Part shown: piece after piece, positions 38,305 to 63,188 of the stretch
Layout of the letters: each line of letters begins with the position of its first letter
Numbering within the stretch: the first letter of the stretch is position 1
NCBI GenBank assembly: GCA_964019425.1
Contig: OZ025819.1
Coordinates: forward strand, 620,001 to 684,000
Direction: 5' to 3'
Source of the DNA: Flectonema sp. DT1601
Taxonomy: Eukaryota; Euglenozoa; Diplonemea; Diplonemida; Diplonemidae
DNA: 64,000 nucleotides
Program-made: the position numbers and the translations under genes
Notes under the pieces: model-generated
What the model saw: only the letters and a program-made list of their open reading frames with translations
Told to the model about the DNA's origin: nothing
Database searches by the model: none

Positions 38305-41300
38305 TTAAATTCTAATCTCTTCCTGTTTACCATAGTTCTCTCCCATTGGAACGTCACCTTCGGGACCAACAGACGTAACGAAATCCTGAAACGAAACGTT
38401 GTCGCTTTTTTTCTTCATGAGGTACCCACCAACTGCACCACAGATAGCTAGTAATCCTGCAATGGCAACTATTAACCAAATCCACCACTTGCTGTCGCCG
38501 TCTTTCTTATCATCTTCTGAGGCTCCATTCTGACCCTTCTGTTTGTTGTTATTATTTTTAGTTTTAAATGATTTGAACTACTTACTCGCTCATCTCACAC
38601 TAAATAAAAACATACGTAATCACTACTTCCTGAACCATTACTGCTTGTGGATCCCTCGCTGGTACTTCCCTGACTGGATCCTTCGGAATCGGAGCTGAGT
38701 TTGCTGTCGCTATCGCTGGTGGTGCTGTCGCTGGTGCTGCCGCTCATGGCAGTTGAACTTCCTGAGTCTGAGTCCTGTTTTTATTAAATAACAACACAAC
38801 ACAACACAACACAACACAACACAACACAACACAACACAACACAACACAACACAACACAACACAACACAACACAACACAACACAACACAACACAACACAAC
38901 ACAACACAACACAACACAACACAACACAACACAACACAACACAACACAACACAACACAACACAACACAACACAACACAACACAACACAACACAACACAAC
39001 ACAACACAACACAAAACAACGCGAGAGAAATCACAATCAGGAAAGCAACATACCGAAGTTGAACAATTAGCAACACCACCAACCATCTCACCATCCAACA
39101 TCATTCCGTTAACTTCCTTACACTTACAGACAAAGTCATACAATGAACCTGGTGCAGTGTCTGGATCAGTACAAGTCTGAGTATCAATAGGACATGGAGG
39201 TACTCCCATTGGTGGATTGCATTCATCAAACTGACAGCTCATCACTGGACCTCCGACATTCTCAACGTGATCAGCTTCACAAGTACAAACAAAGTCGTTA
39301 TTAACATTGACGTCTGGGTCGCTGCAAATCTGATGAGCTCCACATGGGTCTGAAACACACTCACCAGTCTTATCGCAATCAGCTGCTCCACCGATTTTGA
39401 ATACTCCGTTTGCACAGGTGCACTTGAAGTCATCAAGACTGTTAGCCTGCGGGTTCATATCTGTACAGGTCTCAATAACATTCGGGTGACCACTCCATGC
39501 ACATGGATTCTTAGAGCTACCCTGTTTGCACTCATCACATTCAGACACTGGTCCCCCAACGTTGTGAGCCAATCCGAATGGACAACTGCAGTCGAAGTTC
39601 TTCAGATTGTTTCTATCAAAGTCATTACAGACCTGACCTTCACTACATGGATTAGAAAGACATTCATCAACTCCACAATTAGCTTTAGCACCAGTAGCAG
39701 TTGGTCCATTGTTTGCACAAGAACAGATATAATCATGAAGTACTGTAAGAGATTGATCAGGGTCAACACATTCTTGATCATCACCACATGGTTTGGTATC
39801 ACATTCGTTCTTCGAACAGGTGGCTGGACCATCAACCTTCTTTCTCGATGAATCAGTCTTGCATGAACAAACAAAGTCATGGTGCACATCGGCATTAGTG
39901 TTTGGGTCCACACACATCTGATCATCACCACAAGGCTTTGCATCACACTCATCATCGATACAAGCTTTGACTGCTGCTCCAGTAGACTTCACTCCATTAG
40001 GACAGGTGCAGGTGAAGTCTCCAATCGATGTAAGACTTTTCATAGGATCTTCACAAACCTGTTTCTGTGTAGCATCACAAGGGTTGGCATCGCACTCATC
40101 CTTTGAACAAGTTACCCGCCCATCAACTTTTGTCTTTAAAGGATCAGACTTGCAGGTACAAGAATAGTCGTGAAGAACGTTAGCAGCAGTGTTTGGATCG
40201 GTACAGGTCTGATCGTCGGTTACACAAGGATTGGCAGCACACTCATCGACAACACATTTCGTAACGGCTCCACCAGTTGCCACAACCTTGTTTGGACAGG
40301 TGCAGGTGTAGTCACCGATCGAAGACAACGTTGGACTTGGATCATTGCAAACCTGGTTCTGTGCAGCATCACAAGGGTTGGAAGCACACTCATCTTTTGA
40401 ACAAGTTGCTGCACCATCAACCTTCTTGACCGAGGTGTCAGACTTACAGGTGCAAGTGAAGTCGTGAAGGACGTTTGATGCAGTGTTTGGATCATTACAA
40501 GTCTGATCGTTACCTGTTCCACAAGGATTGGCAGCACATTCATCGACAACACACTTCGTGACGGCTCCACCAGTCGCAACAACCTTGTTTGGACAGGTGC
40601 AAGTGAAGTCCTTAATCGAGGAACGAGTTGGGTTCGGATCATTGCAAACCTGCTTCTGTGCAGCATCACAAGGGTTGGCATCGCACTCGTTCTTTGAACA
40701 GGTGGCTGGTCCGTCAACCTTCACATTTGAGGTGTCAGCCTTGCAAGTACAGGTGAAATCGTGAACTTTGTTAGCAGCAGTGTTAGGATCATTACAAGTC
40801 TGATCGTTACCTGTTCCACAAGGATTGGCAGCACACTCATCGACAACACATTTCGTAACGGCTCCACCAGTTGCCACAACCTTGTTTGGACAGGTGCAAG
40901 TGAAGTCCTTAATCGAAGTTCGACTTGGGTTTGGATCATTGCAAACCTGGTTCTGTGTGGCATCACAAGGGTTGGCATCGCACTCGTTCTTTGAACAAGT
41001 TGCTGCACCATCAACCTTCATAATTGAAGTATCAGACTTACAGGTGCAGGTGAAGTCATGAACCTTGTTAGCAGCAGTGTTTGGATCATTACAAGTCTGA
41101 TCGTTACCTGTTCCACAAGGATTGGCAGCACATTCATCGACAACACATTTCGTAACGGCTCCACCAGTTGCCACAACCTTGTTTGGACAGGTGCAAGTGA
41201 AGTCCTTAACCGAGGAACGAGTTGGGTTCGGATCATTGCAAACTTGGTTCTGTGAGGCATCACAAGGGTTGGCATCGCACTCGTTCTTTGAACAAGTTGC

Positions 41301-44300
41301 TGCACCATCAACCTTCATAATTGAAGTGTCAGCCTTGCAAGTACAGGTGAAGTCGTGAAGGACGTTGGCAGCAGTGTCTGGATCATTACAGGTCTGATCG
41401 TTACCTGTTCCACAAGGTTTGGCAGCACATTCATCGACAACACATTTCGTAACGGCTCCACCAGTTGCCACAACCTTGTTTGGACAGGTGCAAGTGAAGT
41501 CCTTAATCGAGGAACGAGTTGGGTTTGGATCATTGCAAACCTGGTTCTGTGTAGCATCACAAGGGTTGGCATCACACTCGTTCTTTGAACAAGTTGCTGC
41601 CCCATCAACCTTCATAATTGAAGTGTCAGCCTTGCAAGTACAGGTGAAGTCGTGAAGGACGTTAGCAGCAGTGTTTGGATCATTACAAGTCTGATCGTTA
41701 CCTGTTCCACATGGATTGGCAGCACATTCATCGACAACACATTTCGTGACGGCTCCACCAGTTGCCACAACCTTGTTTGGACAGGTGCAGGTGAAGTCCT
41801 TAACCGAGGAACGAGTTGGGTTCGGATCATTGCAAACTTGGTTCTGTGTAGCATCACAAGGGTTGGCATCACACTCGTTCTTTGAACAAGTTGCTGCACC
41901 ATCAACCTTCATAATTGAAGTGTCAGCCTTGCAAGTACAGGTGTAGTCATGCTGGCTAGTGGATGCAGTGTTTGGATCGTTACAAGTCTGGTCCATGTTG
42001 GTACCACAAGGATTCATCAAGACAGAGCACTCATCGATTTCACAAGTAGCTGGAGCACCAGTAGCCTTAGCACCATTGGTACATGAGCAAACAAAGTCTA
42101 ATAAAGAAGCTGGAGTCATAACTGGATCATTACACATCTGACCTGGTCCACAAGGAGCACTGAGACACTCATCTTGAACACAAGTAGCCGCTGATCCTAT
42201 CATGTCTCCGGTCTTTGGAGCTCTGCATTTGCAAGTGAAGTCACCGCTCGACGCAACATCATCATTGGCATCGGTACAGTCTTGACCACTTCCACAAGGG
42301 GAGGCGTCACATTCATTCAACTTGCAAGCAGCTTTCTTACCAGTGGCACTTCCTGTTCCTGTTGTACAGGTACAAATAAAGTCACCACTACCCATGGCAG
42401 TAGTGTCTGGATCATTACAAGTCTGACCAGTACCACAAGGAGTGGTGGCACACTCATCCATCATTCCCATCGAACAGGTGGCTGGCTTTCCAGTCTCGAC
42501 AACATTCTGGTTTGGAGCAGGACAGGTACAAGTGAAGTCACCAGTTGAAGCAGCAGAAGTATTTGGGTCAGCACATGTTTGACTACCACAAGGTGATGTT
42601 GAACACTCATCGTTAACACAGCTAGCAACTGGTCCGTCAACCTTCTTTAAGTTCATATCGTTACTACAAATACATTCGAAGTCATGAAGGGAGTTGGCAG
42701 CTTTGTTTAAATCATTACAAGTCTGACCTGTTCCACAGTTAAATGTTCCGCACTCATCAGTCTCACACTTAGCTGGACCACCAGTTGCCACAACCATGTT
42801 TGCACAGGTGCAGGTGAAGTCGTTCAACGATGACAGGGAGGTGTCTGGATCAGCGCAGGTTTGCATTCCACAAGGGCTCGCGTCACACTCGTCCTTGGTA
42901 CAAGTAGCCGCACCATCAACCTTCATAAGTGAGGTGTCAGACTTACAGGTGCAGGTGAAGTCGTGGAGAACATTGGCAGCGGTGTTTGGATCATTACAGG
43001 TCTGATCGTTACCTGTTCCACAAGGATTGGCAGCACACTCGTCTTCGATACACTTTGTGACGGCTCCACCAGTTGCAACAACCTTGTTTGGGCAGGTGCA
43101 GGTATAGTCACCAATCGAGGATAAAGTTGGACTTGGATCATTGCAAACCTGGTTCTGGGACGCATCGCACGGGTTGGAAGCACACTCATCTTTTGAACAA
43201 GTTGCTGCCCCATCAACCTTCTTGACTGAGGTGTCAGACTTACAGGTGCAAGTGAAGTCGTGAAGGACGTTGGCAGCAGTGTTTGGATCATTACAGGTCT
43301 GATCGTTACCTGTTCCACAAGGATTGGCAGCACACTCGTCTTCGATACACTTTGTGACGGCCCCACCAGTTGCCACAACCTTGTTTGGACAGGTGCAGGT
43401 GTAGTCACCGATCGAGGACAACGTTGGACTTGGATCATTGCAAACCTGGTTCTGTGCAGCGTCACAAGGGTTGGAAGCACACTCATCCTTTGAACAAGTG
43501 GCTGGTCCGTCAACCTTCTTGACCGAGGTGTCAGACTTACAGGTGCAAGTGAAGTCGTGAAGGACGTTGGCAGCAGTGTCTGGATCGTTACAAGTCTGAT
43601 CGTTACCTGTTCCACAAGGATTGGCAGCACACTCGTCTTCGATACACTTTGTGACGGCTCCACCAGTTGCAACAACCTTGTTTGGACAGGTGCAAGTGTA
43701 GTCACCAATCGAGGATAAAGTTGGACTTGGATCATTGCAAACCTGGTTCTGTGCAGCGTCACAAGGGTTGGAAGCACACTCATCTTTTGAACAAGTGGCT
43801 GGTCCGTCAACCTTCTTGACTGAGGTGTCAGACTTACAAGTACAGGTGAAGTCGTGTAGGACGTTTGATGCAGTGTTTGGATCATTACAAGTCTGATCGT
43901 TACCTGTTCCACAAGGTTTGGCAGCACATTCATCAACAACACATTTCGTAACGGATCCACCAGTTGCCACAACCTTGTTTGGACAGGTGCAAGTGTAGTC
44001 ACCGATCGAAGACAACGTTGGACTTGGATCATTGCAAACCTGGTTCTGTGCAGCGTCACAAGGGTTGGAAGCACACTCATCTTTTGAACAAGTGGCTGGT
44101 CCGTCAACCTTCTTGACTGAGGTGTCAGACTTACAAGTACAGGTGAAGTCGTGAAGGACGTTTGAGGCAGTGTTTGGATCATTACAAGTCTGATCGTTAC
44201 CTGTTCCACAAGGTTTGGCAGCACACTCATCAACAACACATTTCGTAACGGCTCCACCAGTTGCCACAACCTTGTTCGGACAGGTGCAGGTGTAGTCACC

Positions 44301-46085
44301 GATCGAAGACAACGTTGGACTTGGATCATTGCAAACCTGGTTCTGTGCAGCGTCACAAGGGTTGGAAGCACACTCATCCTTTGAACAAGTGGCTGGTCCG
44401 TCAACCTTCTTGACTGAGGTGTCAGACTTACAAGTACAGGTGAAGTCGTGAAGGACGTTTGAGGCAGTATTCGGATCATTACAAGTCTGATCGTTACCTG
44501 TTCCACAAGGATTGGCAGCACACTCATCAACAACACATTTCGTAACGGCTCCACCAGTTGCAACAACCTTGTTCGGACAGGTGCAAGTGTAGTCACCGAT
44601 CGAAGACAACGTTGGACTTGGATCATTGCAAACCTGGTTCTGTGCAGCGTCACAAGGGTTGGAAGCACACTCATCTTTTGAACAAGTGGCTGGTCCGTCA
44701 ACCTTCTTGACTGAGGTGTCAGACTTACAGGTGCAAGTGAAGTCGTGAAGGACGTTTGAGGCAGTATTTGGATCATTACAAGTCTGATCGTTACCTGTTC
44801 CACAAGGTTTGGCAGCACACTCATCGACAACACATTTCGTAACGGCTCCACCAGTTGCCACAACCTTGTTTGGACAGGTGCAAGTGAAGTCCTTGACACT
44901 TCCTTGCGTTGGGTTTGGATCATTGCAAACCTGGTTCTGGGCCGCATCACAAGGGTTGGCATCACACTCATTCTTTGAACAGGTTGCTGGACCATCGATC
45001 TTAGTGATAGAAGTGTCTGACTTGCAAGTGCACACGAAATCATGAAGAGAGTTTGCAGCCTCACTTGGATCGTTACAGGTTTGATCGGAACCACACGGAG
45101 TGGAATCGCACTCTTTGGTTTCACAAGTTGCCTGTCCACCAGTTGCAACAATTGAAGAATATTTATCACAAGTACAAGTGTAGTCATTTGTCTTGCTGGT
45201 GTCTGGATCATTACAAGTCTGCTTAGCTCCACAGGGGTTACTGTCGCACTCATTGCTACCACTTGGTGTCATGGTGCATCCGCTTGGGGTTTCACCGTAC
45301 TTCCCGACATTTTTATCGTAGCCGCCACCTTTACCCATACTACCGAAGTTACCAGCACTCTCGTAGTTACAAATCAGGTACACGTTGAGGAACCCACCTC
45401 CTTCAACGTGACACAATCCACATCCTACTTTGGTAGTGTCTTTCCAAACAACTTGAGTCATGTGACCAGTTGTACCACTCTCAGAAGCAGTGTTGTAATC
45501 CCAACATCCTTCTTCACCACAATACCAATTGAAGACACCGTTAGCTGGGTCCCAATTATGTAAGTCAGCATTCCCTCCAACTGATGCTAAGTTTTCACCA
45601 AGTCTTCCCTTTGAGTACTGTGGAGGCTTGTTGTGATCAAGGCTCTGTCTGGAACAAGTTCTCTTAAATCCACTACTCCCTACAGAGTAAGCAGCGATAT
45701 CATTATCGTAAATGAGAGGACAGGCTCCATGTTTGGCACGATACTCATTGTGTTTGGCCACAACACTGTCGATCTGCCACTGCGCAAGAGAAGAGTAGCA
45801 GTCTGTTTTGGTCTTTCCAGTGCAGGAACCAGTCTTTGCAGCAGTCGGTGCCGGCACTGGAGCACCAGGAGGACAAGTGCAATCACATCTTCCGTTGTTG
45901 CAGTTGCTGTAGGTGACAATCTTCGCACATCCATAAGTCTTAGCCATGAGCTTACATGTGTAACCTCCATCACACATATCGCTACAAACTGGACCACTCC
46001 CAACACAAACCGCCTTAGACGAGTCACATTGAGCATTCGAGAGCAAGGCTGCCCCCATGAGGACAGAAAGTTTTAAAAGCTTCAT
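38305..46085 (-). CDS. giant CAP-EGF type I membrane protein, array copy 1 (42 EGF modules)
   Basis: Three exons (46085-39054, 38774-38616, 38538-38305), all phase 0, give about 2474 aa. Order: signal peptide MKLLKLSVLMGAALLSNA, a Cys-rich segment (20-72), and a CAP/SCP domain (about 104-250) with HNEYRAKHGA, GENLA, GHMTQVVWKD and YLICNYES, so all four CAP signatures are present, including His112, Glu164 and His208. From 279 to 2344 there are 42 six-Cys EGF-like modules of 49-50 residues. Exon 2 is a 53-residue Ser/Asp/Gly stalk. Exon 3 gives a charged linker, one helix (about 2415-2438, starting WWIWLIVAIAG) and a 36-residue cytoplasmic tail with PMGENYGK. Likely a cell-surface adhesion or recognition protein. 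The exon 2-3 model is read from splice sites (GTATGT...CAG) and from identical structure in three copies. Confidence 0.9.
38791..39013 (-). repeat. (GTGTT)n microsatellite inside intron 1 of copy 1
   Basis: About 44 units of GTGTT on the coding strand, inside the 279-nt intron 38775-39053. Read as protein it gives Val-Leu-Cys-Cys-Val repeats with no stop in any frame, a composition effect of the 5-bp unit rather than evidence of coding. Confidence 0.95.
39954..41732 (-). repeat. C-terminal EGF dimer block, copy 1 (6 dimers, 1779 bp)
   Basis: Twelve EGF modules alternate between a GTGNDQTCNDPN type and a DATQNQVCNDPN type, forming a 297-bp higher-order unit. The fifth dimer (about 40262-40560) has the sequence type of the other block (SPTLSSIGDYTC), a sign of exchange between blocks. 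Confidence 0.9.
42894..44825 (-). repeat. N-terminal EGF dimer block, copy 1 (13 modules, 1932 bp)
   Basis: Seven B-type (AANPCGTGNDQ) and six A-type (ASNPCDAAQNQ, SPTLSSIGDY) modules alternate. Neighbouring 297-bp units differ by only a few bases, so they were copied recently. Confidence 0.9.
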
Positions 46086-47644
46086 AGTTATCTGTTTTTG
46101 ATAAATAATATTTATTGGGTTGAGAATTAAAAACTAACAAAAGTAAAACCTATCATTTCATTATGATGACTTCCCAATCAATCCACATCAGTTTGTTGTT
46201 TTAAAACCCGCTGCTTGACAAGGAAAGTAATAATCAACCAACAGCAACAACAATAAAAACAATATTTGTTGAACGCAGTTTCTTTTCAAAAAAAAGAAAA
46301 ATGGGAACCCAACGATTGGAACCAGGATTCTTCGTAGGGGTTCTATTGTCCACGTTCACGCTTATTTAAAGTTTGAGAAAAGGTCGTTGAAACGATTCCA
46401 TAAATGTGTGAAGGGAATGAAGGGAATAGAATAAAAAAATAAAATAAAAAAAGTATTAAAATTGAGAGGAAAGGCACTGCCTAATGAACCGAGAACCAGC
46501 TAAGTGGACACTCAAAGAGAAGCTCTTAAGGATTGGAAGGTTGACTTAACTTCTTGCGAAAAGAGTACTTTGTCAGTTCGACATAAATCAAGACTGGATC
46601 AAGACTGGATCAAGAGGTCTGTTGTGTGCAATGCTTCAACTTTGACAAGATCATTAGTAGCGAAGAAAATCAAAGAAAAGGTAATCCCTGTTTTAAAAAA
46701 TAAAAAAAAAAAAAAACTGGCAAAGTTAGTTAGTGAGGAGTACACACTAACAAAAGTGGAACTAGAACACAAAGATGACGATGTGCCTTAGTAGTAGACT
46801 TAATTGATTAGAAGTTGTGAAGAGATATTTTATGAAGAAAAGAATAACTAACCAGATCCGATTTGTACAACCTTATTAAAAATAACTTCATACGAAATTT
46901 GTGGACCTACTTAAACTGAGAAAGCTAAGGGACGTACTGCTTAGTGTTCTTTCTTTGGCTCCCCAGAATACTTGTTAAATGCAAAATAATAAAACGAGTC
47001 AATTTATAAAGGCTGTGGCACATCATCAATCAAAACACATACTCGACCACAAGGGTTTTAACTGTTCGGTTTTGTACGTAAAATATAAAATGTATTGTAT
47101 CATAAACCGCAGGGGGGAAAGGGAATGAAAGGTCAGTCTTTTCTTGATTTGACGGGGAAAAAAAAAAGAAATTAATCTCTGAGAATGCTACAGAGAGATT
47201 TCTCTTAATTTTTTTTTTTTCCCCCCCCGTGTGAAATTGATTAAGTCACTATTTTTTTTTTTTTCTAACGAACGACAAAAAAACGAAAAGAAAAAATAAT
47301 TATTATTATCTCCCACAAAATAAAATTGAGGGAGAATCGTATCATCGTTAAAAAAAAAAAAAACAACAAAAACAACAACACAACAAGAATTATACACGAC
47401 TGCGCTAAAACCGGAAAAGAGGAAAGCAGTCGAGAAAAATTATTTAGAACAGAGCGGGATCGAACCCCCCCTCTGCCTCTAAAATCTTCCTCTTTGAAAA
47501 GGAGAGAGAAAAAAAATATCAATCAGAATAAATCCGAGCTTGCGATTCACAGAAAAGTTCATTTCGGATATGGAGGTACCATACCTTTTTATAATTTTGG
47601 AAGTTTCTTTTTAAACTAAAAAATTAACACGTGAAATAATAATA
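46086..47644. other. array spacer between copies 2 and 1 (left of the pogo insertion)
   Basis: It is nearly identical to 56166-57590 except for one replaced block (about 46691-46960 against 56797-56905) and small indels. On the minus strand the part next to 46085 is the leader of copy 1, ending AAAAACAG six nt before the ATG. A GACTGGATCAA unit is repeated twice here and three times in the other spacer. No convincing gene. Confidence 0.7.
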
Positions 47645-49392: not shown

Positions 49393-49537
49393 TAATCAAA
49401 AAATAAACTGGTAAATAAACACGAACGATTGACAATTTTGAAGTCATATAAGACACCTGGTGACTGAAATAACAGCCCCGTTTAGATTCTAAGAAATTAT
49501 TGGAAATTATTCTCATTCATTTTATTGTTTGCTCTTA
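49393..49537. other. array spacer, right of the pogo insertion
   Basis: Continues the spacer interrupted by the transposon and matches 57587-57750, ending at the stop codon of copy 2. Confidence 0.8.
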
Positions 49538-52500
49538 TTAAATATTTATTTGTTCTTGTTTACCATAGTTCTCTCCCATTGGAACGTCACCTTCGGGACC
49601 AACAGACGTAACGAAATCCTGAAACGAAACGTTGTCGCTTTTTTTCTTCATGAGGTACCCACCAACTGCACCACAGATAGCTAGTAATCCTGCAATGGCA
49701 ACTATTAACCAAATCCACCACTTGCTGTCGCCGTCTTTCTTTTCATCTTCTGAGGCTCCATTCTGACCCTTCTGTTTGTTGTTATTATTTTTAGTTTTAA
49801 ATGATTTGAACTACTTACTCGCTCATCTCACACTAAATAAAAACATACGTAATCACTACTTCCTGAACCATTACTGCTTGTGGATCCCTCGCTGGTACTT
49901 CCCTGACTGGATCCTTCGGAATCGGAGCTGAGTTTGCTGTCGCTATCGCTGGTGGTGCTGTCGCTGGTGCTACCGCTCATGGCAGTTGAACTTCCTGAGT
50001 CTGAGTCCTGTTTTTATTAAATAACAACACAACTCAACACAACACAACACAACACAACACAACACAACACAACACAACACAACACAACACAACACAACAC
50101 AACACAACACAACACAACACAACACAACACAACACAACACAACACAACACAACACAACACAACACAACACAACACAACACAACACAACACAACACAACAC
50201 AACACAACACAACACAACACAACACAACACAACACAACACAACACAACACAACACAACACAACACAACACAACACAACACAAAACAACGCGAGAGAAATC
50301 ACAATCAGGAAAGCAACATACCGAAGTTGAACAATTAGCAACACCACCAACCATCTCACCATCCAACATCATTCCGTTAACTTCCTTACACTTACAGACA
50401 AAGTCATACAATGAACCTGGTGCAGTGTCTGGATCAGTACAAGTCTGAGTATCAATAGGACATGGAGGTACTCCCATTGGTGGATTGCATTCATCAAACT
50501 GACAGCTCATCACTGGACCTCCGACATTCTCAACGTGATCAGCTTCACAAGTACAAACAAAGTCGTTATTAACATTGACGTCTGGGTCGCTGCAAATCTG
50601 ATGAGCTCCACATGGGTCTGAAACACACTCACCAGTCTTATCGCAATCAGCTGCTCCACCGATTTTGAATACTCCGTTTGCACAGGTGCACTTGAAGTCA
50701 TCAAGACTGTTAGCCTGCGGGTTCATATCTGTACAGGTCTCAATAACATTCGGGTGACCACTCCATGCACATGGATTCTTAGAGCTACCCTGTTTGCACT
50801 CATCACATTCAGACACTGGTCCCCCAACGTTGTGAGCCAATCCGAATGGACAACTGCAGTCGAAGTTCTTCAGATTGTTTCTATCAAAGTCATTACAGAC
50901 CTGACCTTCACTACATGGATTAGAAAGACATTCATCAACTCCACAATTAGCTTTAGCACCAGTAGCAGTTGGTCCATTGTTTGCACAAGAACAGATATAA
51001 TCATGAAGTACTGTAAGAGATTGATCAGGGTCAACACATTCTTGATCATCACCACATGGTTTGGTATCACATTCGTTCTTCGAACAGGTGGCTGGACCAT
51101 CAACCTTCTTTCTCGATGAATCAGTCTTGCATGAACAAACAAAGTCATGGTGCACATCGGCATTAGTGTTTGGGTCCACACACATCTGATCATCACCACA
51201 AGGCTTTGCATCACACTCATCATCGATACAAGCTTTGACTGCTGCTCCAGTAGACTTCACTCCATTAGGACAGGTGCAGGTGAAGTCTCCAATCGATGTA
51301 AGACTCTTCATAGGATCTTCACAAACCTGTTTCTGTGTAGCATCACAAGGGTTGGCATCGCACTCATCCTTTGAACAAGTTACCCGCCCATCAACTTTCG
51401 TCTTTAAAGGATCAGACTTGCAGGTGCAAGAATAGTCGTGAAGAACGTTAGCAGCAGTGTTTGGATCATTACAGGTCTGATCGTCGGTTACACAAGGTTT
51501 GGCAGCACACTCATCGACAACACACTTTGTGACGGCTCCACCAGTAGCAACAACCTTGTTTGGACAGGTGCAAGTGAAGTCCTTAATCGAGGAACGAGTT
51601 GGGTTCGGATCATTGCAAACTTGGTTCTGCGTGGCATCACAAGGGTTGGCATCACACTCGTTCTTTGAACAGGTGGCTGGTCCGTCAACCTTCACATTTG
51701 AGGTGTCAGACTTACAGGTGCAGGTGAAGTCGTGAAGGACGTTGGCAGCAGTGTTCGGATCATTACAGGTCTGATCGTTACCTGTTCCACATGGATTGGC
51801 AGCACACTCATCGACAACACATTTCGTAACGGCTCCACCAGTTGCCACAACCTTGTTTGGACAGGTGCAAGTGAAGTCCTTAATCGAGGAACGAGTTTGA
51901 TTTGGATCATTGCAAACCTGGTTCTGCGTGGCATCACAAGGGTTGGCATCACACTCGTTCTTGGAACAAGTTGCTGGTCCATCAACCTTCATAATTGACA
52001 TGTCAGCCTTGCAAGTACAGGTGAAGTCGTGAAGGACGTTAGCAGCAGTGTTAGGATCATTACAAGTCTGATCGTTACCTGTTCCACAAGGATTGGCAGC
52101 ACATTCATCGACAACACATTTCGTAACGGCTCCACCAGTTGCCACAACCTTGTTTGGACAGGTGCAAGTGAAGTCCTTAACCGAGGAACGAGTTGGGTTC
52201 GGATCATTGCAAACTTGGTTCTGTGTAGCATCACAAGGGTTGGCATCACACTCGTTCTTTGAACAGGTGGCTGGTCCGTCAACCTTCACATTTGAGGTGT
52301 CAGCCTTGCAAGTACAGGTGAAGTCGTGAAGGACGTTGGCAGCAGTGTTTGGATCATTACAGGTCTGATCGTTACCTGTTCCACAAGGATTGGCAGCACA
52401 TTCATCGACAACACATTTCGTAACGGCTCCACCAGTTGCCACAACCTTGTTTGGACAGGTGCAGGTGAAGTCCTTAACCGAGGAACGAGTTGGGTTCGGA

Positions 52501-55500
52501 TCATTGCAAACTTGGTTCTGTGTAGCATCACAAGGGTTGGCATCACACTCGTTCTTTGAACAAGTTGCTGCACCATCAACCTTCATAATTGAAGTGTCAG
52601 CCTTGCAAGTACAGGTGTAGTCATGCTGGCTAGTGGATGCAGTGTTTGGATCGTTACAAGTCTGATCCATGTTGGTACCACAAGGATTCATCAGGACAGA
52701 GCACTCATCGATTTCACAAGTAGCTGGAGCACCAGTAGCCTTAGCACCATTGGTACATGAGCAAACAAAGTCTAATAAAGAAGCTGGAGTCATAACTGGA
52801 TCATTACACATCTGACCTGGTCCACAAGGAGCACTGAGACACTCATCTTGAACACAAGTAGCCGCTGATCCTATCATGTCTCCGGTCTTTGGAGCTCTGC
52901 ATTTGCAAGTGAAGTCACCGCTCGACGCAACATCATCATTGGCATCGGTACAGTCTTGACCACTTCCACAAGGGGAGGCGTCACATTCATTCAACTTGCA
53001 AGCAGCTTTCTTACCAGTGGCACTTCCGGTTCCTGTTGTACAGGTACAAATAAAGTCACCACTACCCATGGCAGTAGTGTCTGGATCATTACAAGTCTGA
53101 CCAGTACCACAAGGAGTGGTGGCACACTCATCCATCATTCCCATCGAACAGGTGGCTGGCTTTCCAGTCTCGACAACATTCTGGTTTGGAGCAGGACAGG
53201 TACAAGTGAAGTCACCAGTTGAAGCAGCAGAAGTATTTGGGTCAGCACATGTTTGACTACCACAAGGTGATGTTGAACACTCATCGTTAACACAGCTAGC
53301 AACTGGTCCGTCAACCTTCTTTAAGTTCATATCGTTACTACAAATACATTCGAAGTCATGAAGGGAGTTGGCAGCTTTGTTTAAATCATTACAAGTCTGA
53401 CCTGTTCCACAGTTAAATGTTCCGCACTCATCAGTCTCACACTTAGCTGGACCACCAGTTGCCACAACCATGTTTGCACAGGTGCAGGTGAAGTCGTTCA
53501 ACGATGACAGGGAGGTGTCTGGATCAGCGCAGGTTTGCATTCCACAAGGGCTCGCGTCACACTCGTCCTTGGTACAAGTAGCCGCACCATCAACCTTCAT
53601 AAGTGAGGTGTCAGACTTACAGGTGCAGGTGAAGTCGTGGAGAACATTGGCAGCGGTGTTTGGATCATTACAGGTCTGATCGTTACCTGTTCCACAAGGA
53701 TTGGCAGCACACTCGTCTTCGATACACTTTGTGACGGCTCCACCAGTTGCAACAACCTTGTTTGGGCAGGTGCAGGTATAGTCACCAATCGAGGATAAAG
53801 TTGGACTTGGATCATTGCAAACCTGGTTCTGGGACGCATCGCACGGGTTGGAAGCACACTCATCTTTTGAACAAGTTGCTGCCCCATCAACCTTCATAAT
53901 TGAGGTGTCAGACTTACAGGTGCAGGTGAAGTCGTGAAGGACGTTTGAGGCAGTATTCGGATCATTACAAGTCTGGTCATTACCTGTTCCACAAGGATTG
54001 GCAGCACACTCGTCGTCAATACACTTTGTGACGGCTCCACCAGTTGCCACAACCTTGTTTGGACAGGTGCAAGTGTAGTCGCTGATCGAAGACAACGTTG
54101 GACTTGGATCATTGCAAACCTGGTTCTGTGCAGCGTCACAAGGGTTGGAAGCACACTCATCCTTTGAACAAGTGGCTGGTCCGTCAACCTTCTTAATTGA
54201 GGTGTCAGACTTACAGGTGCAGGTGAAGTCGTGAAGGACGTTTGATGCAGTGTTTGGATCATTACAAGTCTGGTCGTTACCTGTTCCACATGGATTGGCA
54301 GCACACTCATCGACAACACATTTCGTAACGGCTCCACCAGTTGCAACAACCTTGTTTGGACAGGTGCAAGTGTAGTCACCGATCGAAGACAACGTTGGAC
54401 TTGGATCATTGCAAACCTGGTTCTGTGCAGCGTCACAAGGGTTGGCATCACACTCATCTTTTGAACAAGTGGCTGGTCCGTCAACCTTCTTAATTGAGGT
54501 GTCAGACTTACAGGTGCAAGTGAAGTCGTGAAGGACGTTTGATGCAGTGTTTGGATCACTACAAGTCTGGTCGTTACCTGTTCCACAAGGTTTGGCAGCA
54601 CACTCATCAACAACACATTTCGTAACGGCTCCACCAGTTGCCACAACCTTGTTCGGACAGGTGCAAGTGTAGTCACCGATCGAAGACAACGTTGGACTTG
54701 GATCATTGCAAACCTGGTTCTGTGCAGCGTCACAAGGGTTGGAAGCACACTCATCCTTTGAACAAGTGGCTGGTCCGTCAACCTTCATAATTGAGGTGTC
54801 AGACTTACAGGTGCAGGTGAAGTCGTGAAGGACGTTTGAGGCAGTATTCGGATCATTACAAGTCTGATCGTTACCTGTTCCACAAGGTTTGGCAGCACAC
54901 TCATCGACAACACATTTCGTAACGGCTCCACCAGTTGCAACAACCTTGTTTGGACAGGTGCAAGTGAAGTCCTTGACACTTCCTTGCGTTGGGTTTGGAT
55001 CATTGCAAACCTGGTTCTGGGCGGCATCACAAGGGTTGGCATCACACTCATTCTTTGAACAGGTTGCTGGACCATCAATCTTAGTGATAGAAGTGTCTGA
55101 CTTGCAAGTGCACACGAAATCATGAAGAGAGTTTGCAGCCTCACTTGGATCGTTACAGGTTTGATCGGAACCACACGGAGTGGAATCGCACTCTTTGGTT
55201 TCACAAGTTGCCTGTCCACCAGTTGCAACAATTGAAGAATATTTATCACAAGTACAAGTGTAGTCATTTGTCTTGCTGGTGTCTGGATCATTGCAAGTCT
55301 GCTTAGCTCCACAGGGGTTACTGTCGCACTCATTGCTACCACTTGGTGTCATGGTGCATCCGCTTGGGGTTTCACCGTACTTCCCGACATTTTGATCGAA
55401 GCCGCCACCTTTACCCATACTACCGAAGTTACCAGCACTCTCGTAGTTACAAATCAGGTACACGTTGAGGAACCCGCCTCCTTCAACGTGACACAATCCA

Positions 55501-56165
55501 CATCCTACTTTGGTAGTGTCTTTCCAAACAACTTGAGTCATGTGACCAGTTGTACCACTCTCAGTAGCAGTGTTGTAATTCCAACATCCTTCTTCACTAC
55601 AATACCAACCGATGACACCGTTAGCTGGGTCCCAATTATGTAAGTCAGCATTCCCTCCAACTGATGCTAAGTTTTCACCAAGTCTTCCCTTTGAGTACTG
55701 TGGAGGGTTGTTGTGATTAAGGTCCTGTCTGGAACAAGTTTTCTTAAATCCACTACTCCCTACAGAGTAAGCAGCGATATCATTATCGTAAATGAGAGGA
55801 CAGGCTCCATGTTTGGCACGATACTCATTGTGTTTGGCCACAACACTGTCGATCTGCCACTGCGCAAGAGAAGAGTAGCAGTCTGTTTTGGTCTTTCCAG
55901 TGCAGGAACCAGTCTTTGCAGCAGTCGGTGCCGGCACTGGAGCACCAGGAGGACAAGTGCAATCACATCTTCCGTTGTTGCAGTTGCTGTAGGTGACAAT
56001 CTTCGCGCATCCATAAGTGTTCGCCATGTCCTTACATGTGTAACCTCCATCACACATATCGCTACAAACTGGACCACTCCCAACACAAACCACCTTAGAC
56101 GAGTCACATTGAGCATTCGAGAGCAAGGCTGCCCCCATGAGGACAGAAAGTTTTAAAAGCTTCAT
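49538..56165 (-). CDS. giant CAP-EGF type I membrane protein, array copy 2 (34 EGF modules)
   Basis: Exons 56165-50322, 50007-49849 and 49771-49538 give about 2078 aa. The introns are 314 and 77 nt and all junctions are phase 0. The architecture is the same as copy 1: signal peptide, Cys-rich segment, CAP domain with GENLA and GHMTQVVWKD, EGF modules, Ser-rich stalk, one membrane helix and tail. The CAP part differs from copy 1 by a few residues (for example GVIGWYCSEEGCWNYN against GVFNWYCGEEGCWDYN). There are eight fewer EGF modules, four lost from each of two blocks. The tail ends KQEQINI, against KQEEIRI in copy 1. Confidence 0.9.
50024..50281 (-). repeat. (GTGTT)n microsatellite inside intron 1 of copy 2
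   Basis: About 51 units with one variant unit near the 3' side of the intron (50008-50321, 314 nt). The intron is 35 nt, exactly seven units, longer than in copy 1. Confidence 0.95.
51222..52406 (-). repeat. C-terminal EGF dimer block, copy 2 (4 dimers, 1185 bp)
   Basis: Eight modules. It is 594 bp (two 297-bp dimers) shorter than the same block in copy 1 and lacks the dimer of foreign block type seen there. Confidence 0.9.
53568..54905 (-). repeat. N-terminal EGF dimer block, copy 2 (9 modules, 1338 bp)
   Basis: Five B-type and four A-type modules, 594 bp shorter than in copy 1. Confidence 0.9.
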
Positions 56166-57750
56166 AGTTATCTGTTTTTGATAAATAATATTTATTGGGT
56201 TGAGAATTAAAAACTAACAAAGTAAAACCTATCATTTCATTATGATGACTTCCCAACCAATCCACATCTGTTTGTTGTTTTATTTTTTTGTTTTAAACCC
56301 GCAGCTTGACAAGGAAAGTAAAAATCAACCAACAGCAACAACAACAATAAAAACAATATTTGTTGAACGCAGTTTCTTTTCAAAAAAAAAGAAAATGGGA
56401 ACCCAACGATTGGAACCAGGATTCTTCGTAGGGGTTCTATTGTCCACGTTCACGCTTATTTAAAGTTTGAGAAAAGGTCGTTGAAACGATTCCATAAATG
56501 TGTGAAGGGAATGAAGGGAATAGAATAAAAAAATAAAATAAAAAAAGTATTAAAATTGAGAGGAAAGGCACTGCCTAATGAACCGAGAACCAGCTAAGTG
56601 GACACTCAAAGAGAAGCTCTTAAGGATTGGAAGGTTGACTTAACTTCTTGCGAAAAGAGTACTTTGTCAGTTCGACATAAATCAAGACTGGATCAAGACT
56701 GGATCAAGACTGGATCAAGAGGTCTGTTGTGTGCAATGCTTCAACTTTGACAAGATCATTAGTAGCGAAGAAAATCAAAGAAAAGGTAATCCCTGTTTGT
56801 CTAACTGTGAACCGACTTAAAGATGATAAAGTACTCTCGCGAAGGAGGTTTACGTGTTCTGCAAATATTCTTTTTTCAGCTCTTACAATACTTCTTTCTT
56901 TGTCTCCCCAGAATACTTGTTAAATGCAAAATAATAAAACGAGTCAATTTATAAAGGCTGTGACACATCATCAATCAAAACACATACTCGACCACAAGGG
57001 TTTTAACTGTTCGGTTTTGTACGTAAAATATAAAATGTATTGTATCATAAACCGCAGGGGGGAAAGGGAATGAAAGGTCAGTCTTTTCTTGATTTGACGG
57101 GTAAAAAAAAAAAAAAAAAAAAAAAATTAATCTCTGAGAATGCCGCAGAGATTTCTTCTACATTTTTTTTTTCCCTCCCGCGTGAAATTGATTATGTCAT
57201 TTTTTTTTTTTTCTAACGAACGACAAAAAAACGAAAAAAATAAAAAATAATTATCTCCCACAAAATAAAAATGAGGGAGAATCGTATCATCGTTAAAAAG
57301 AATAAAACAACAAAAACAACAACACAACAAGAATTATACACGACTGCGCTAAAACCGGAAAAGAGGAAAGCAGGCGAGAAAGATTATTTAGAACAGAGCG
57401 GGATCGAACCCCCCCTCTGCCTCTAAAATCCTCCTCTTTGAAAAGGATAGAAAAAAAAAAATAGCAATCGGGAAAATATCCGAGCTAACGATTCACAATA
57501 AGTTCATTTCGGATATGGAGGTACCATACCTTTTTATAATTTTGGAAGTTTCCTTCAAACTAGTAAATTAACACGTGAAATAATAATCAAAAAATAAACT
57601 GGTATGAAGATCTTCCCGAGACGGTAATAAATAAACAACGATTGACAATTTTGAAGTCATATAAGACACCTGGTGACTGAAATAACAGACCCGTTAAGAT
57701 TCTAAGAATTTATTGAACATTATTCTCATTCATTTTATTGTTTGCTCTTA
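56166..57750. other. array spacer between copies 3 and 2
   Basis: Homologous to 46086-47644 plus 49393-49537 but without the pogo insert. Next to 56165 it supplies the leader of copy 2, identical to that of copy 1. A/T runs occur near 57102-57125 and 57200-57212. No convincing gene. Confidence 0.7.
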
Positions 57751-60700
57751 TTAAATTTTTATTTGCTCTTGTTTACCATAGTTCTCTCCCATTGGGACAG
57801 CAGCTGTATCTGGGCCGATAGCAGAAGCAAATTCCTGAAAGGAGACGTTATCGTCTCTTTTCTTCATGAGGTACCCACCAACTGCACCACAGATAGCTAG
57901 TAATCCTGCAATGGCAACTATTAACCAAATCCACCACTTGCTGTCGCCGTCTTTCTTATCATCTTCTGAGGCTCCATTCTGACCCTTCTGTTTGTTGTTA
58001 TTATTTTTAGTTTTAAACGATTTGAACTACTTACTCGCTCATCTCACACTAAATAAAAACATACGTAATCACTACTTCCTGAACCACTACTGCTTGTGGA
58101 TCCCTCGCTGGTACTTCCCTGACTGGATCCTTCGGAATCGGAGCTGAGTTTGCTGTCGCTATCGCTGGTGGTGCTGTCGCTGGTGCTACCGCTCATGGCA
58201 GTTGAACTTCCTGAGTCTGAGTCCTGTTTTTATTAAATAACAACACAACACAACACAACACAACACAACACAACACAACACAACACAACACAACACAACA
58301 CAACACAACACAACACAACACAACACAACACAACACAACACAACACAACACAACACAACACAACACAACACAACACAACACAACACAACACAACACAACA
58401 CAACACAACACAACACAACACAACACAACACAACACAACACAACACAACACAACACAACACAACACAACACAACACAACACAACACAACACAAAACAACG
58501 CGAGAGAAATCACAATCAGGAAAGCAACATACCGAAGTTGAACAATTAGCAACACCACCAACCATCTCACCATCCAACATCATTCCGTTAACTTCCTTAC
58601 ACTTACAGACGAAGTCATACAATGAACCTGGTGCAGTGTCTGGATCAGTACAAGTCTGAGTATCAATAGGACATGGAGGTACTCCCATTGGTGGATTGCA
58701 TTCATCAAACTGACAGCTCATCACTGGACCTCCGACATTCTCAACGTGATCAGCTTCACAAGTACAAACAAAGTCGTTATTAACATTGACGTCTGGGTCG
58801 CTGCAAATCTGATGAGCTCCACATGGGTCTGAAACACACTCACCAGTCTTATCGCAATCAGCTGCTCCACCGATTTTGAATACTCCGTTTGCACAGGTGC
58901 ACTTGAAGTCATCAAGACTGTTAGCCTGCGGGTTCATATCTGTACAGGTCTCAATAACATTCGGGTGACCACTCCATGCACATGGATTCTTAGAGCTACC
59001 CTGTTTGCACTCATCACATTCAGACACTGGTCCCCCAACGTTGTGAGCCAATCCGAATGGACAACTGCAGTCGAAGTTCTTCAGATTGTTTCTATCAAAG
59101 TCATTACAGACCTGACCTTCACTACATGGATTAGAAAGACATTCATCAACTCCACAATTAGCTTTAGCACCAGTAGCAGTTGGTCCATTGTTTGCACAAG
59201 AACAGATATAATCATGAAGTACTGTAAGAGATTGATCAGGGTCAACACATTCTTGATCATCACCACATGGTTTGGTATCACATTCGTTCTTCGAACAGGT
59301 GGCTGGACCATCAACCTTCTTTCTCGATGAATCAGTCTTGCATGAACAAACAAAGTCATGGTGCACATCGGCATTAGTGTTTGGGTCCACACACATCTGA
59401 TCATCACCACAAGGCTTTGCATCACACTCATCATCGATACAAGCTTTGACTGCTGCTCCAGTAGACTTCACTCCATTAGGACAGGTGCAGGTGAAGTCTC
59501 CAATCGATGTAAGACTTTTCATAGGATCTTCACAAACCTGTTTCTGTGTAGCATCACAAGGGTTGGCATCGCACTCATCCTTTGAACAAGTTACCCGCCC
59601 ATCAACTTTTGTCTTTAAAGGATCAGACTTACAGGTGCAAGAATAGTCGTGAAGAACGTTGGCAGCAGTGTTTGGATCGGTACAGGTCTGATCGTCGGTT
59701 ACACAAGGATTGGCAGCACACTCATCGACAACACATTTCGTAACGGCTCCACCAGTTGCCACAACCTTGTTTGGACAGGTGCAGGTGAAGTCCTTAATCG
59801 AGGAACGAGTTGGGTTCGGATCATTGCAAACCTGGTTCTGTGTAGCATCACAAGGGTTGGCATCACACTCGTTCTTTGAACAGGTGGCTGGTCCGTCAAC
59901 CTTCACATTTGAGGTGTCAGCCTTGCAAGTACAGGTGAAGTCGTGAAGGACGTTGGCAGCAGTGTTTGGATCATTACAGGTCTGATCGTTACCTGTTCCA
60001 CAAGGATTGGCAGCACACTCATCGACAACACATTTCGTAACGGCTCCACCAGTAGCAACAACCTTGTTTGGACAGGTGCAGGTGAAGTCCTTAACCGAGG
60101 AACGAGTTGGGTTCGGATCATTGCAAACCTGGTTCTGTGTAGCATCACAAGGGTTGGCATCACACTCGTTCTTTGAACAAGTTGCTGCACCATCAACCTT
60201 CATAATTGAAGTGTCAGCCTTGCAAGTACAGGTGTAGTCATGCTGGCTGGAGGAGGCAGTGTTTGGATCGTTACAAGTCTGATCCATGTTGGTACCACAA
60301 GGATTCATCAAGACAGAGCACTCATCGATTTCACAAGTAGCTGGAGCACCAGTAGCCTTAGCACCATTGGTACATGAGCAAACAAAGTCTAATAAAGAAG
60401 CTGGAGTCATAACCGGATCATTACACATCTGACCTGGTCCACAAGGAGCACTGAGACACTCATCTTGAACACAAGTAGCCGCTGATCCTATCATGTCTCC
60501 GGTCTTTGGAGCTCTGCATTTGCAAGTGAAGTCACCGCTCGACGCAACATCATCATTGGCATCGGTACAGTCTTGACCACTTCCACAAGGGGAGGCGTCA
60601 CATTCATTCAACTTGCAAGCAGCTTTCTTACCAGTGGCACTTCCTGTTCCTGTTGTACAGGTACAAATAAAGTCACCACTACCCATGGCAGTAGTGTCTG

Positions 60701-63188
60701 GATCATTACAAGTCTGACCAGTACCACAAGGAGTGGTGGCACACTCATCCATCATTCCCATCGAACAGGTGGCTGGCTTTCCAGTCTCGACAACATTCTG
60801 GTTTGGAGCAGGACAGGTACAAGTGAAGTCACCAGTTGAAGCAGCAGAAGTATTTGGGTCAGCACATGTTTGACTACCACAAGGTGATGTTGAACACTCA
60901 TCGTTAACACAGCTAGCAACTGGTCCGTCAACCTTCTTTAAGTTCATATCGTTACTACAAATACATTCGAAGTCATGAAGGGAGTTGGCAGCTTTGTTTA
61001 AATCATTACAAGTCTGACCTGTTCCACAGTTAAATGTTCCGCACTCATCAGTCTCACACTTAGCTGGACCACCAGTTGCCACAACCATGTTTGCACAGGT
61101 GCAGGTGAAGTCGTTCAACGATGACAGGGAGGTGTCTGGATCAGCGCAGGTTTGCATTCCACAAGGGCTCGCGTCACACTCGTCCTTGGTACAAGTAGCC
61201 GCACCATCAACCTTCATAAGTGAGGTGTCAGACTTACAGGTGCAGGTGAAGTCGTGAAGGACGTTGGCAGCAGTGTTTGGATCGTTACAGGTCTGATCGT
61301 TACCTGTTCCACAAGGATTGGCAGCACACTCGTCTTCGATACACTTTGTGACGGCTCCACCAGTTGCCACAACCTTGTTTGGACAGGTGCAAGTGTAGTC
61401 ACCAATCGAGGATAACGTTGGACCTGGGTCATTGCAAACCTGGTTCTGGGACGCATCGCACGGGTTGGAAGCACACTCATCTTTTGAACAAGTTGCTGCC
61501 CCATCAACCTTCATAATTGAGGTGTCAGACTTACAGGTGCAAGTGAAGTCGTGAAGGACGTTTGTGGCAGTGTTTGGATCGTTACAAGTCTGGTCGTTAC
61601 CTGTTCCACAAGGATTGGCAGCACACTCATCAACAATACACTTCGTAACGGCTCCACCAGTTGCCACAACCTTGTTTGGACAGGTGCAAGTGTAGTCACC
61701 GATCGAAGACAACGTTGGACTTGGATCATTGCAAACCTGGTTCTGTGCAGCGTCACAAGGGTTGGAAGCACACTCATCTTTTGAACAAGTGGCTGGACCA
61801 TCAACCTTCTTAATTGAGGTGTCAGACTTACAGGTACAGGTGAAGTCGTGAAGGACGTTTGAGGCAGTGTTTGGATCACTACAAGTCTGATCGTTACCTG
61901 TTCCACAAGGTTTGGCAGCACACTCATCAACAATACACTTCGTGACGGCTCCACCAGTTGCCACAACCTTGTTTGGACAGGTGCAAGTGAAGTCCTTGAC
62001 ACTTCCTTGCGTTGGGTTTGGATCATTGCAAACCTGGTTCTGGGCCGCATCACAAGGGTTGGCATCACACTCATTCTTTGAACAGGTTGCTGGACCATCG
62101 ATCTTAGTGATAGAAGTGTCTGACTTGCAAGTGCACACGAAATCATGAAGAGAGTTTGCAGCCTCACTTGGATCGTTACAGGTTTGATCGGAACCACACG
62201 GAGTGGAATCGCACTCTTTGGTTTCACAAGTTGCCTGTCCACCAGTTGCAACAATTGAAGAATATTTATCACAAGTACAAGTGTAGTCATTTGTCTTGCT
62301 GGTGTCTGGATCATTGCAAGTCTGCTTAGCTCCACAGGGGTTACTGTCGCACTCATTGCTACCACTTGGTGTCATGGTGCATCCGCTTGGGGTTTCACCG
62401 TACTTCCCGACATTTTTATCGTAGCCGTCACCTTTACCCATTTTACCGAAGTTACCAGCACTCTCGTAGTTACAAATCAGGTACACGTTGAGGAACCCGC
62501 CTCCTTCAACGTGACACAATCCACATCCTACTTTGGTAGTGTCTTTCCAAACAACTTGAGTCATGTGACCAGTTGTACCACTCTCAGTAGCAGTGTTGTA
62601 ATCCCAACATCCTTCTTCACTACAATACCAACTGATGACACCGTTAGCTGGGTCCCAATTATGTAAGTCAGCATTCCCTCCAACTGATGCTAAGTTTTCA
62701 CCAAGTCTTCCCTTTGAGTACTGTGGAGGCTTGTTGTGATCAAGGTCCTGTCTGGAACAAGTTCTCTTAAATCCACTACTCCCTACAGAGTAAGCAGCGA
62801 TATCATTATCGTAAATGAGAGGACAGGCTCCATGTTCGGCACGATACTCATTGTGTTTGGCCACAACACTGTCGATCTGCCACTGCGCAAGAGAGGAGTA
62901 GCAGTCTGTTTTGGTCTTTCCAGTGCAGGAACCAGTCTTTGCAGCAGTCGGTGCCGGCACTGGAGCACCAGGAGGACAAGTGCAATCACATCTTCCGTTG
63001 TTGCAGTTGCTGTAGGTGACAATCTTCGCACATCCATAAGTGTTCGCCATGTCCTTACATGTGTAACCTCCATCACACATATCGCTACAAACTGGACCAC
63101 TCCCAACACAAACCACCTTAGACGAGTCACATTGAGCATTCGAGAGCAAGGCTGCCCCCATGAGGACAGAAAGTTTTAAAAGCTTCAT
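57751..63188 (-). CDS. giant CAP-EGF type I membrane protein, array copy 3 (26 EGF modules)
   Basis: Exons 63188-58533, 58223-58065 and 57987-57751 give about 1683 aa. The introns are 309 and 77 nt. Domain order is as in copies 1 and 2. It is the shortest copy, with eight fewer EGF modules than copy 2. Its cytoplasmic tail differs sharply from the others over about 25 residues (RDDNVSFQEFASAIGPDTAA against KSDNVSFQDFVTSVGPEGD) although the membrane helix and the final PMGENYGKQE are conserved, and it is one codon longer. Beyond 17-18 nt upstream of the ATG its 5' flank is unlike that of copies 1 and 2, so it may be regulated differently. It lies furthest upstream in transcriptional order. Confidence 0.9.
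58240..58493 (-). repeat. (GTGTT)n microsatellite inside intron 1 of copy 3
   Basis: About 50 uninterrupted units within intron 58224-58532 (309 nt), six units longer than in copy 1. Confidence 0.95.
59433..60023 (-). repeat. C-terminal EGF dimer block, copy 3 (2 dimers, 591 bp)
   Basis: Four modules, 594 bp shorter than in copy 2. Confidence 0.9.
61185..61928 (-). repeat. N-terminal EGF dimer block, copy 3 (5 modules, 744 bp)
   Basis: Three B-type and two A-type modules, 594 bp shorter than in copy 2. Confidence 0.9.

Follow-up and report, generated by a model that had tools for sequence, protein, structure and literature searches.

Three co-oriented genes for CAP-EGF membrane proteins

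Three intact genes, all on the minus strand, occupy positions 38,305 to 63,188 of the DNA analysed here, a stretch of 64,000 nucleotides (nt) from the diplonemid Flectonema sp. DT1601 (GenBank assembly GCA_964019425.1, contig OZ025819.1, positions 620,001 to 684,000; hereafter the window). The window's contig is labelled C40 in the genome that we searched (89.5 Mb, 92 contigs). Exon 1 of each gene is open, with no internal stop, and removal of two introns yields predicted proteins of 2474, 2078 and 1683 amino acids (aa), in which a signal peptide, a CAP domain, 42, 34 or 26 EGF-like modules, a Ser-rich stalk, a membrane helix and a tail follow one another in that order. The modules form two arms around a hinge, an N-terminal arm (N-arm) next to the CAP domain and a C-terminal arm (C-arm) that ends at a four-module base. 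The most surprising fact about these genes and their relatives, unseen in an earlier note made from the sequence of the window, is that in most genes the two arms hold equal numbers of modules about a single glycine hinge. In window positions, the features of the trio are the following.

39054..46085, minus strand: gene 1 exon 1, signal peptide, Cys-rich pre-domain, CAP domain and 42 EGF-like modules; open frame with donor G/GTATG
45363..45758, minus strand: gene 1 CAP domain (Pfam PF00188; CAP fold)
42459..45254, minus strand: gene 1 N-arm, 19 modules by cysteine parsing
42450..42476, minus strand: gene 1 hinge linker CSMGMMDEC, the array's only 7-residue linker
39669..42458, minus strand: gene 1 C-arm, 19 modules
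39054..39668, minus strand: gene 1 four-module base adjoining the stalk
38775..39053, minus strand: gene 1 intron 1, with a (GTTGT)n array
38616..38774, minus strand: gene 1 exon 2, Ser-rich stalk
38305..38538, minus strand: gene 1 exon 3, membrane helix (WWIWLIVAIAGLLAICGAVGGYLM) and 36-residue tail with VSFQDF
50322..56165, minus strand: gene 2 exon 1, CAP domain and 34 modules (15 + 15 + 4)
53133..55334, minus strand: gene 2 N-arm, 15 modules
53124..53150, minus strand: gene 2 hinge linker
50937..53132, minus strand: gene 2 C-arm, 15 modules
50322..50936, minus strand: gene 2 four-module base
49849..50007, minus strand: gene 2 exon 2, Ser-rich stalk
49538..49771, minus strand: gene 2 exon 3, membrane helix and tail
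58533..63188, minus strand: gene 3 exon 1, CAP domain and 26 modules (11 + 11 + 4)
60750..62357, minus strand: gene 3 N-arm, 11 modules
60741..60767, minus strand: gene 3 hinge linker
59148..60749, minus strand: gene 3 C-arm, 11 modules
58533..59147, minus strand: gene 3 four-module base
58065..58223, minus strand: gene 3 exon 2, Ser-rich stalk
57751..57987, minus strand: gene 3 exon 3, membrane helix and tail
38791-39020, 50024-50288 and 58240-58499: GTTGT arrays in intron 1 of the three genes

The earlier note had described three co-oriented genes sharing one architecture up to a membrane anchor, and the open frames and the splicing out of the introns agree with it. Its exon 1 lengths of 7032, 5844 and 4656 nt, each 1188 bp (4 x 297 bp) shorter than the one before, were found again; the protein-level steps are 396 and 395 residues, because exon 3 of gene 3 is 3 nt longer, and the fixed parts compared among the trio genes have the same length in all three. 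The introns start with G/GTATG and end with CAG/, which fits the diplonemid consensus of PMC12621601, whose section 5 gives a (G)/GTATG donor for three diplonemids and a CAG acceptor for four.

The CAP domain matched Pfam at E 5e-13 to 1e-11 in the trio, with PF00188 over its cut-off in the trio and in an adjoining gene that encodes a CAP domain without an array (CAP-only gene), and predicted structures of the domain matched CAP structures. The modules found no Pfam EGF match, in the trio at E 0.001 or in the hinge segment at E 0.01. Their assignment as EGF-like is supported by cysteine spacing, with six cysteines per module and C-x-C between Cys4 and Cys5 in 42/42 and 70/70 modules of two genes, by a profile match to Notch1 (E 1e-5) and, more tentatively, by predicted module folds, for which EGF structures were the top fold matches. 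In the modules of two genes inspected, the Cys3-Cys4 loop measures 12-14 residues. A search of NCBIfam matched no family, an Rfam scan of the window at gathering scores returned nothing, and Pfam matches to DUF1353 and VirionAssem_T7 were discarded as spurious, with no stretch passing alone.

The architecture recurs across the genome

A search for CAP domains found 59 places genome-wide, part of which were read for array structure; CAP places on C3, C4, C5, C8, C19, C31, C39, C52, C68, C74 and C76 and at C2:284201, and further arrays on C28 and C39, lie outside the parsed set. Clusters with the same architecture as the trio were found on C59 (three genes), C24 (five genes and one CAP-only gene) and C73 (two genes and three with 2-3 modules), and the loci fetched on C2, C18, C30 and C32 hold single CAP-array genes. 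The three C59 proteins run from signal peptide and CAP domain through membrane helix and tail, each in one open frame. Because they are single open frames, the joining of CAP domain to array, which the earlier note had proposed, is independent of predicted splicing, and doubt about the splicing was set aside; the same joining occurs in the transcript-derived proteins P0007, P0019 and P0056 of other species. Measured in two genes, the tail extends 36-37 residues beyond the helix. Its motif VSFQDF, or a variant, is found on C40, C24, C2 and C59, and several of the foreign relatives, though not all, share it.

Equal arms about a single glycine hinge

We parsed by cysteines the 16 genes that have both hinge and base, leaving out the C32 gene (no base), the three short C73 genes (no hinge) and two CAP-only genes. 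Their arrays contain 544 module boundaries, of which 496 are 4 residues long, 16 are of 2, 16 of 5 and 16 of 7 residues. The 7-residue linker, which contains a glycine (CSMGMMDEC and similar), occurs exactly once per gene in 16/16 genes, and the four-module base begins at the 2-residue linker. Counted from hinge to base, the C-arm holds as many modules as the N-arm in 14/16 genes, from 7+7 to 33+33. The balanced arm sizes are 11, 15 and 19 on C40, 17, 19 and 21 on C59, 21 on C30, 9 and 9 on C73, 13 on C2, 33 on C18, and 7, 11 and 13 on C24, and the two arms agree in length to within 0-1 residue in 11/14 balanced genes, the remaining three being off by 5, 12 and 26 residues. The hinge glycine is invariant in 12/12 aligned sequences, including some with other heads, and in a six-module structure model confidence is lowest in the block that contains the hinge (69 versus 74-92).

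Each 1188-bp step in the window therefore corresponds to two 297-bp units gained or lost in each arm. The length ladder of the earlier note is thus real, while its cause, that both arms change together around one hinge, had been missed. Equal steps occur a second time in the C59 trio, which forms another ladder of 38, 42 and 46 modules, with one two-module unit per arm at each step. A 594-bp higher-order unit was considered as the source of these steps of two and rejected for the N-arm of C40, where identity between repeats drops steadily with distance and shows no peak at lag 2; among the C-arm repeats such a unit may exist, lag 2 being equal to lag 1 or slightly higher (lag 2 versus lag 1, 0.907 versus 0.903 in gene 1, n 3 and 4; 0.949 versus 0.926 in gene 2, n 1 and 2).

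The module counts are those of the assembly, and a ladder could in principle arise by collapse or expansion of repeats during assembly. The equality is found on seven contigs and in foreign proteins, two of them transcript-derived (P0007 and P0056), and we consider such an artefact highly improbable. Two proteins come from ENA contigs of other length, which may be an independent assembly: the first 1300 residues of P0001 are identical to the C73 frame, and P0055 has the length and counts of the frame of C24:395158, the smallest member (7 + 7 + 4 modules), with a 100-residue stretch compared.

Tests of the equality rule

For the C30 gene, equal arms were predicted before the DNA was retrieved, with its hinge position and frame length known beforehand and its arm counts not, and 21 + 21 + 4 modules were found. 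Duplications in the two arms of the C18 gene also keep step, N-arm modules 4-8 recurring as 10-14 with 98.8% DNA identity and C-arm modules 53-58 recurring as 59-64 with 95.6% identity, at the same six-module spacing. In seven disjoint gene pairs, hand-picked from the tree, the sum of squares was 1304 for total length and 76 for imbalance (F(7,7) 17.2, p 0.0007); imbalance was zero in 4/7 pairs and present in 3/7, and the sign test gave 6/6, with one tie (total and imbalance both 2). These results bear on the possibility that balance descends from a 7+7 ancestor and that later equal changes coincided by chance among relatives. The genes of a cluster are close relatives, 5/7 parsable foreign proteins are 7+7, and zero imbalance in only four of the tested pairs would also fit this account; set against it are the nine distinct balanced sizes at seven loci, the F-test and the outcome of the C30 prediction, and we judge it improbable.

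Among CAP proteins of other species, equal arms were found in 6/7 that could be parsed, with 7+7 in P0005, P0007, P0008, P0056 and P0058 and 9+9 in P0006. Because base size varies in these proteins, their equality rests on the 2-residue linker that marks the start of the base. The seven exclude P0019, which has a CAP domain and no hinge, and P0012, P0002, P0004 and P0016, which have other heads; P0001 and P0055 belong to the present genome and are not counted as foreign.

Arrays with a hinge also occur under other heads, with 15/17 modules before and after it on C36, 15/18 at C2:53340 (counted by eye), 11/12 in P0002 and P0004, 7/8 in P0016, and 6 and 10 in the astacin-headed P0012. We did not count these genes, because their balance depends on where the base is drawn. 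Within clusters the hinge block shows strong conservation, and it also occurs in these other-headed proteins with near-equal arms, as might be expected if selection held the hinge at mid-height for some other reason, for example to place a bend, cleavage point or binding site there, in arms that never touch. Mid-height alone would allow arms that are off by one or two modules, whereas 14/16 genes show a difference of exactly zero, and we regard this explanation as unlikely, if worth keeping in mind.

A further possibility is that a DNA process, in which recombination or conversion copies repeat number, alters both arms at once, leaving the equality without function. In its favour are one N-arm-type dimer (modules 33-34) inside the C-arm of gene 1 and the similarity of the two arms in C40 and in C30. 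Best matches between the arms of C18 and C24 are 0.68-0.73, compared with 0.90-0.96 within arms. Because the arms of these genes differ while each is homogeneous, copying of one arm into the other fails to explain their equality and was rejected as a general cause; inter-arm exchange is excluded for C18 and C24 only, since the arms of C59, C40 and C30 are not separable in this way. The distinct, internally homogeneous arms make a purely mutational cause appear less likely. The hinge, moreover, is single in 16/16 genes, and we know of no one-step event that equally lengthens two separated blocks. We consider a DNA process of this kind rather unlikely.

Diverged heads on near-identical stalks

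Inside clusters, stalks are near-identical and heads have usually diverged. Between genes 1 and 2 of the trio, 17/638 nonsynonymous sites differ in the CAP domain and 0/1010 in the stalk parts compared, and the contrast between head and stalk in amino-acid change is significant; the corresponding synonymous difference between CAP domain and stalk is not significant. Synonymous divergence is higher in the CAP domain than in the hinge region in 9/10 C24 pairs (74/191 versus 6/198 sites in one of them), 3/3 C59 pairs, the one long C73 pair and 3/3 C40 pairs, the C40 excess being very small. These patterns probably reflect gene conversion that acts on the stalk and leaves the head untouched for the most part. 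Positive selection on the trio CAP domain was considered and not upheld, the ratio of nonsynonymous to synonymous divergence (dN/dS) of 1.4-1.7 being not significant (Fisher p 0.59-0.78).

Because heads diverge on near-identical stalks, the pattern suggests a recognition or adhesion role. The earlier note had proposed a role of this kind at the cell surface from domains; it fits the diverged heads on like stalks, and it is still something that we infer.

A possible model for length-matched arms

Together, the architecture, the single hinge, the arm equality in most genes and, for most pairs, the divergence of heads on near-identical stalks lead us to chart a possible model for this family. The proteins would be type I membrane proteins in which a CAP recognition head is carried by a rod built of EGF-like modules. 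This rod would consist of two arms and one glycine-containing hinge, and after it would come the four-module base, the Ser-rich stalk, the helix and a tail that is short and conserved. The arms may lie side by side, either in an intramolecular hairpin, with the head folded back beside the base, or in an antiparallel pair of molecules; in this proposed arrangement they must match in length because they lie side by side. A gain or loss of two modules in one arm would then be matched in the other by selection, giving the 26/34/42 and 38/42/46 ladders, while heads would diverge and stalks would be kept alike by gene conversion, as in a surface recognition or adhesion family. We give nearly an even chance to this explanation of the equal arms by side-by-side pairing and selection, in which the pairing, the selection, the gene conversion and the recognition role are all deduced. 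That the proteins are giant receptors with a length-matched pair of EGF arms in register about a hinge, under an equality rule that runs from 7+7 to 33+33, we hold tentatively and at a little below an even chance.

A precedent for pairing an N-terminal with a C-terminal half in a Cys-rich rod may be seen in MST1, the Chlamydomonas mastigoneme protein, which the part of PMC11015965 used here describes as an antiparallel homodimer, with the N-half of a Cys-rich domain paired to the C-half of a second such domain.

Several observations weigh against the side-by-side model and the equality rule that it would explain. No contact between arms was seen in structure models, which cover pieces only. 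Two of the five C24 genes have unequal arms (11/13 in C24:388252 and 21/15 in C24:417395), as does the Diplonema papillatum model P0003 (18/12), and the C32 gene has a hinge without a base, with a Pro/Thr-rich stalk at its end. P0019 joins CAP domain and array without such a hinge. The base is not constant in foreign proteins, with 4, 4, 7, 5, 5, 5 and 2 modules in P0005, P0007, P0008, P0056, P0058, P0006 and P0003, and in other-headed proteins the arms come only close to equality if no head-specific base is assumed. In C40 and in C30 the N-arm resembles the C-arm, and the C59 C-arm has own best matches of 0.69-0.76, not above those between arms, with few C-arm repeats. As for the heads, the tenth C24 pair (395158 and 388252) has nearly the same head, and the excess of amino-acid change in the trio CAP domain is not significant against neutrality.

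The number of repeats in a protein array is commonly assumed to drift freely. In this family the two separate repeat blocks within a gene hold, for the most part, equal module numbers over a more than fourfold size range, at several loci and in several species. The equality makes a physical prediction, of side-by-side arms in register; if the model is true, repeat number in two separate gene blocks evolves under an equality rule.

Comparison with known systems

For the head, the closest known system is the CAP superfamily (CRISP/Antigen 5/PR-1), with members such as yeast Pry1, GAPR-1 and GLIPR1. No title among the matched CAP structures names an EGF array, unlike the diplonemid CAP-array proteins, and the CLEC18-type CAP-EGF-lectin proteins of vertebrates have only a few EGF modules. 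The diplonemid proteins resemble Notch and other metazoan EGF-array receptors in being type I membrane proteins with a long EGF array, and they differ from Notch in the CAP head, the Cys3-Cys4 loop, the absence of a Pfam EGF match, the hinge with equal arms and the short tail. Pfam found no LNR or ankyrin parts, as known from Notch, and no Ig-like domain in the three trio frames scanned, which end before the stalk.

With MST1 the family shares a Cys-rich rod, set on a protist cell surface in MST1 (PMC11015965, in the part cited) and predicted to stand there in the diplonemid family. MST1 differs in having a Cys-rich domain of growth-factor-receptor type, Ig-like domains and a polyproline helix, and that part names no CAP domain for it; the trio has a Ser-rich stalk instead of the helix. 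P0003 of D. papillatum is like the trio in its CAP domain, its array of EGF-like modules (32 in P0003), hinge, membrane helix and tail, and is unlike it in its arm counts and in being an automatic gene model with a multi-pass N-terminal part.

Named homologs of the whole protein are mainly from D. papillatum, and some homologs bear the transcript prefixes Rhum and Sspe, which we take to stand for Rhynchopus humris and Sulcionema specki. The earlier note knew of no described family joining an N-terminal CAP domain to dozens of EGF modules and a membrane anchor in a protist. Literature searches on a diplonemid CAP-EGF family likewise found no paper describing one, and a search on folded-back or length-matched EGF arms found nothing on point; the D. 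papillatum relative P0003, however, is present in NCBI, where automatic annotation has named it 'Neurogenic locus Notch protein'. The main text of the D. papillatum genome paper (PMC10161547) mentions neither Notch, nor adhesion, nor the CAP domain.

Neighbouring genes and related loci

The stalk seems common to different heads, because genes on C36 and C2 with another Cys-rich head (loci L035 and L036; C36:193515-199109 and C2:50817-56525) carry the same hinge-bearing array, with similar helix and tail. No Pfam match was obtained for the heads on C36 and at C2:53340, which may be called PAN-like only by resemblance to P0016, which has the precomputed domain PF00024. Locus L028 (C32:45997-49257) is a divergent member in which the Pro/Thr-rich stalk stands before the membrane helix in place of the base. 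Tandem frames with several CAP domains, 857 to 2296 aa long and with a period of about 680 bp, lie at C19:627403-646850 and C39:1026114-1027856; the CAP domain of the trio is single.

The C40 and C24 clusters each end upstream in a CAP-only gene, that of C24 at C24:427156-427923. On C40 this fourth gene flanks the trio a short way beyond the window, where it would occupy positions 64360-65256 in the same numbering (L010:357-1256), and encodes 299 aa with a hydrophobic C-terminus that by eye looks like a glycosylphosphatidylinositol signal. Intron 1 of all three trio genes consists largely of the pentamer GTTGT (as read on the coding strand), in 46-53 copies, and GTTGT arrays also occur, among the matches listed, on C1, C3, C4 and C32.

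At the start of each trio gene and of the adjoining CAP-only gene stands CAG/ATAACTATG, plausibly a spliced-leader acceptor. A diplonemid spliced-leader pattern was found at 713 places in the genome with up to three mismatches, and its reversed control at 0; the matches listed include tandem spliced-leader arrays at C16:1432445-1446807 (unit about 623 bp) and C20:1248650-1289571 (about 610 bp).

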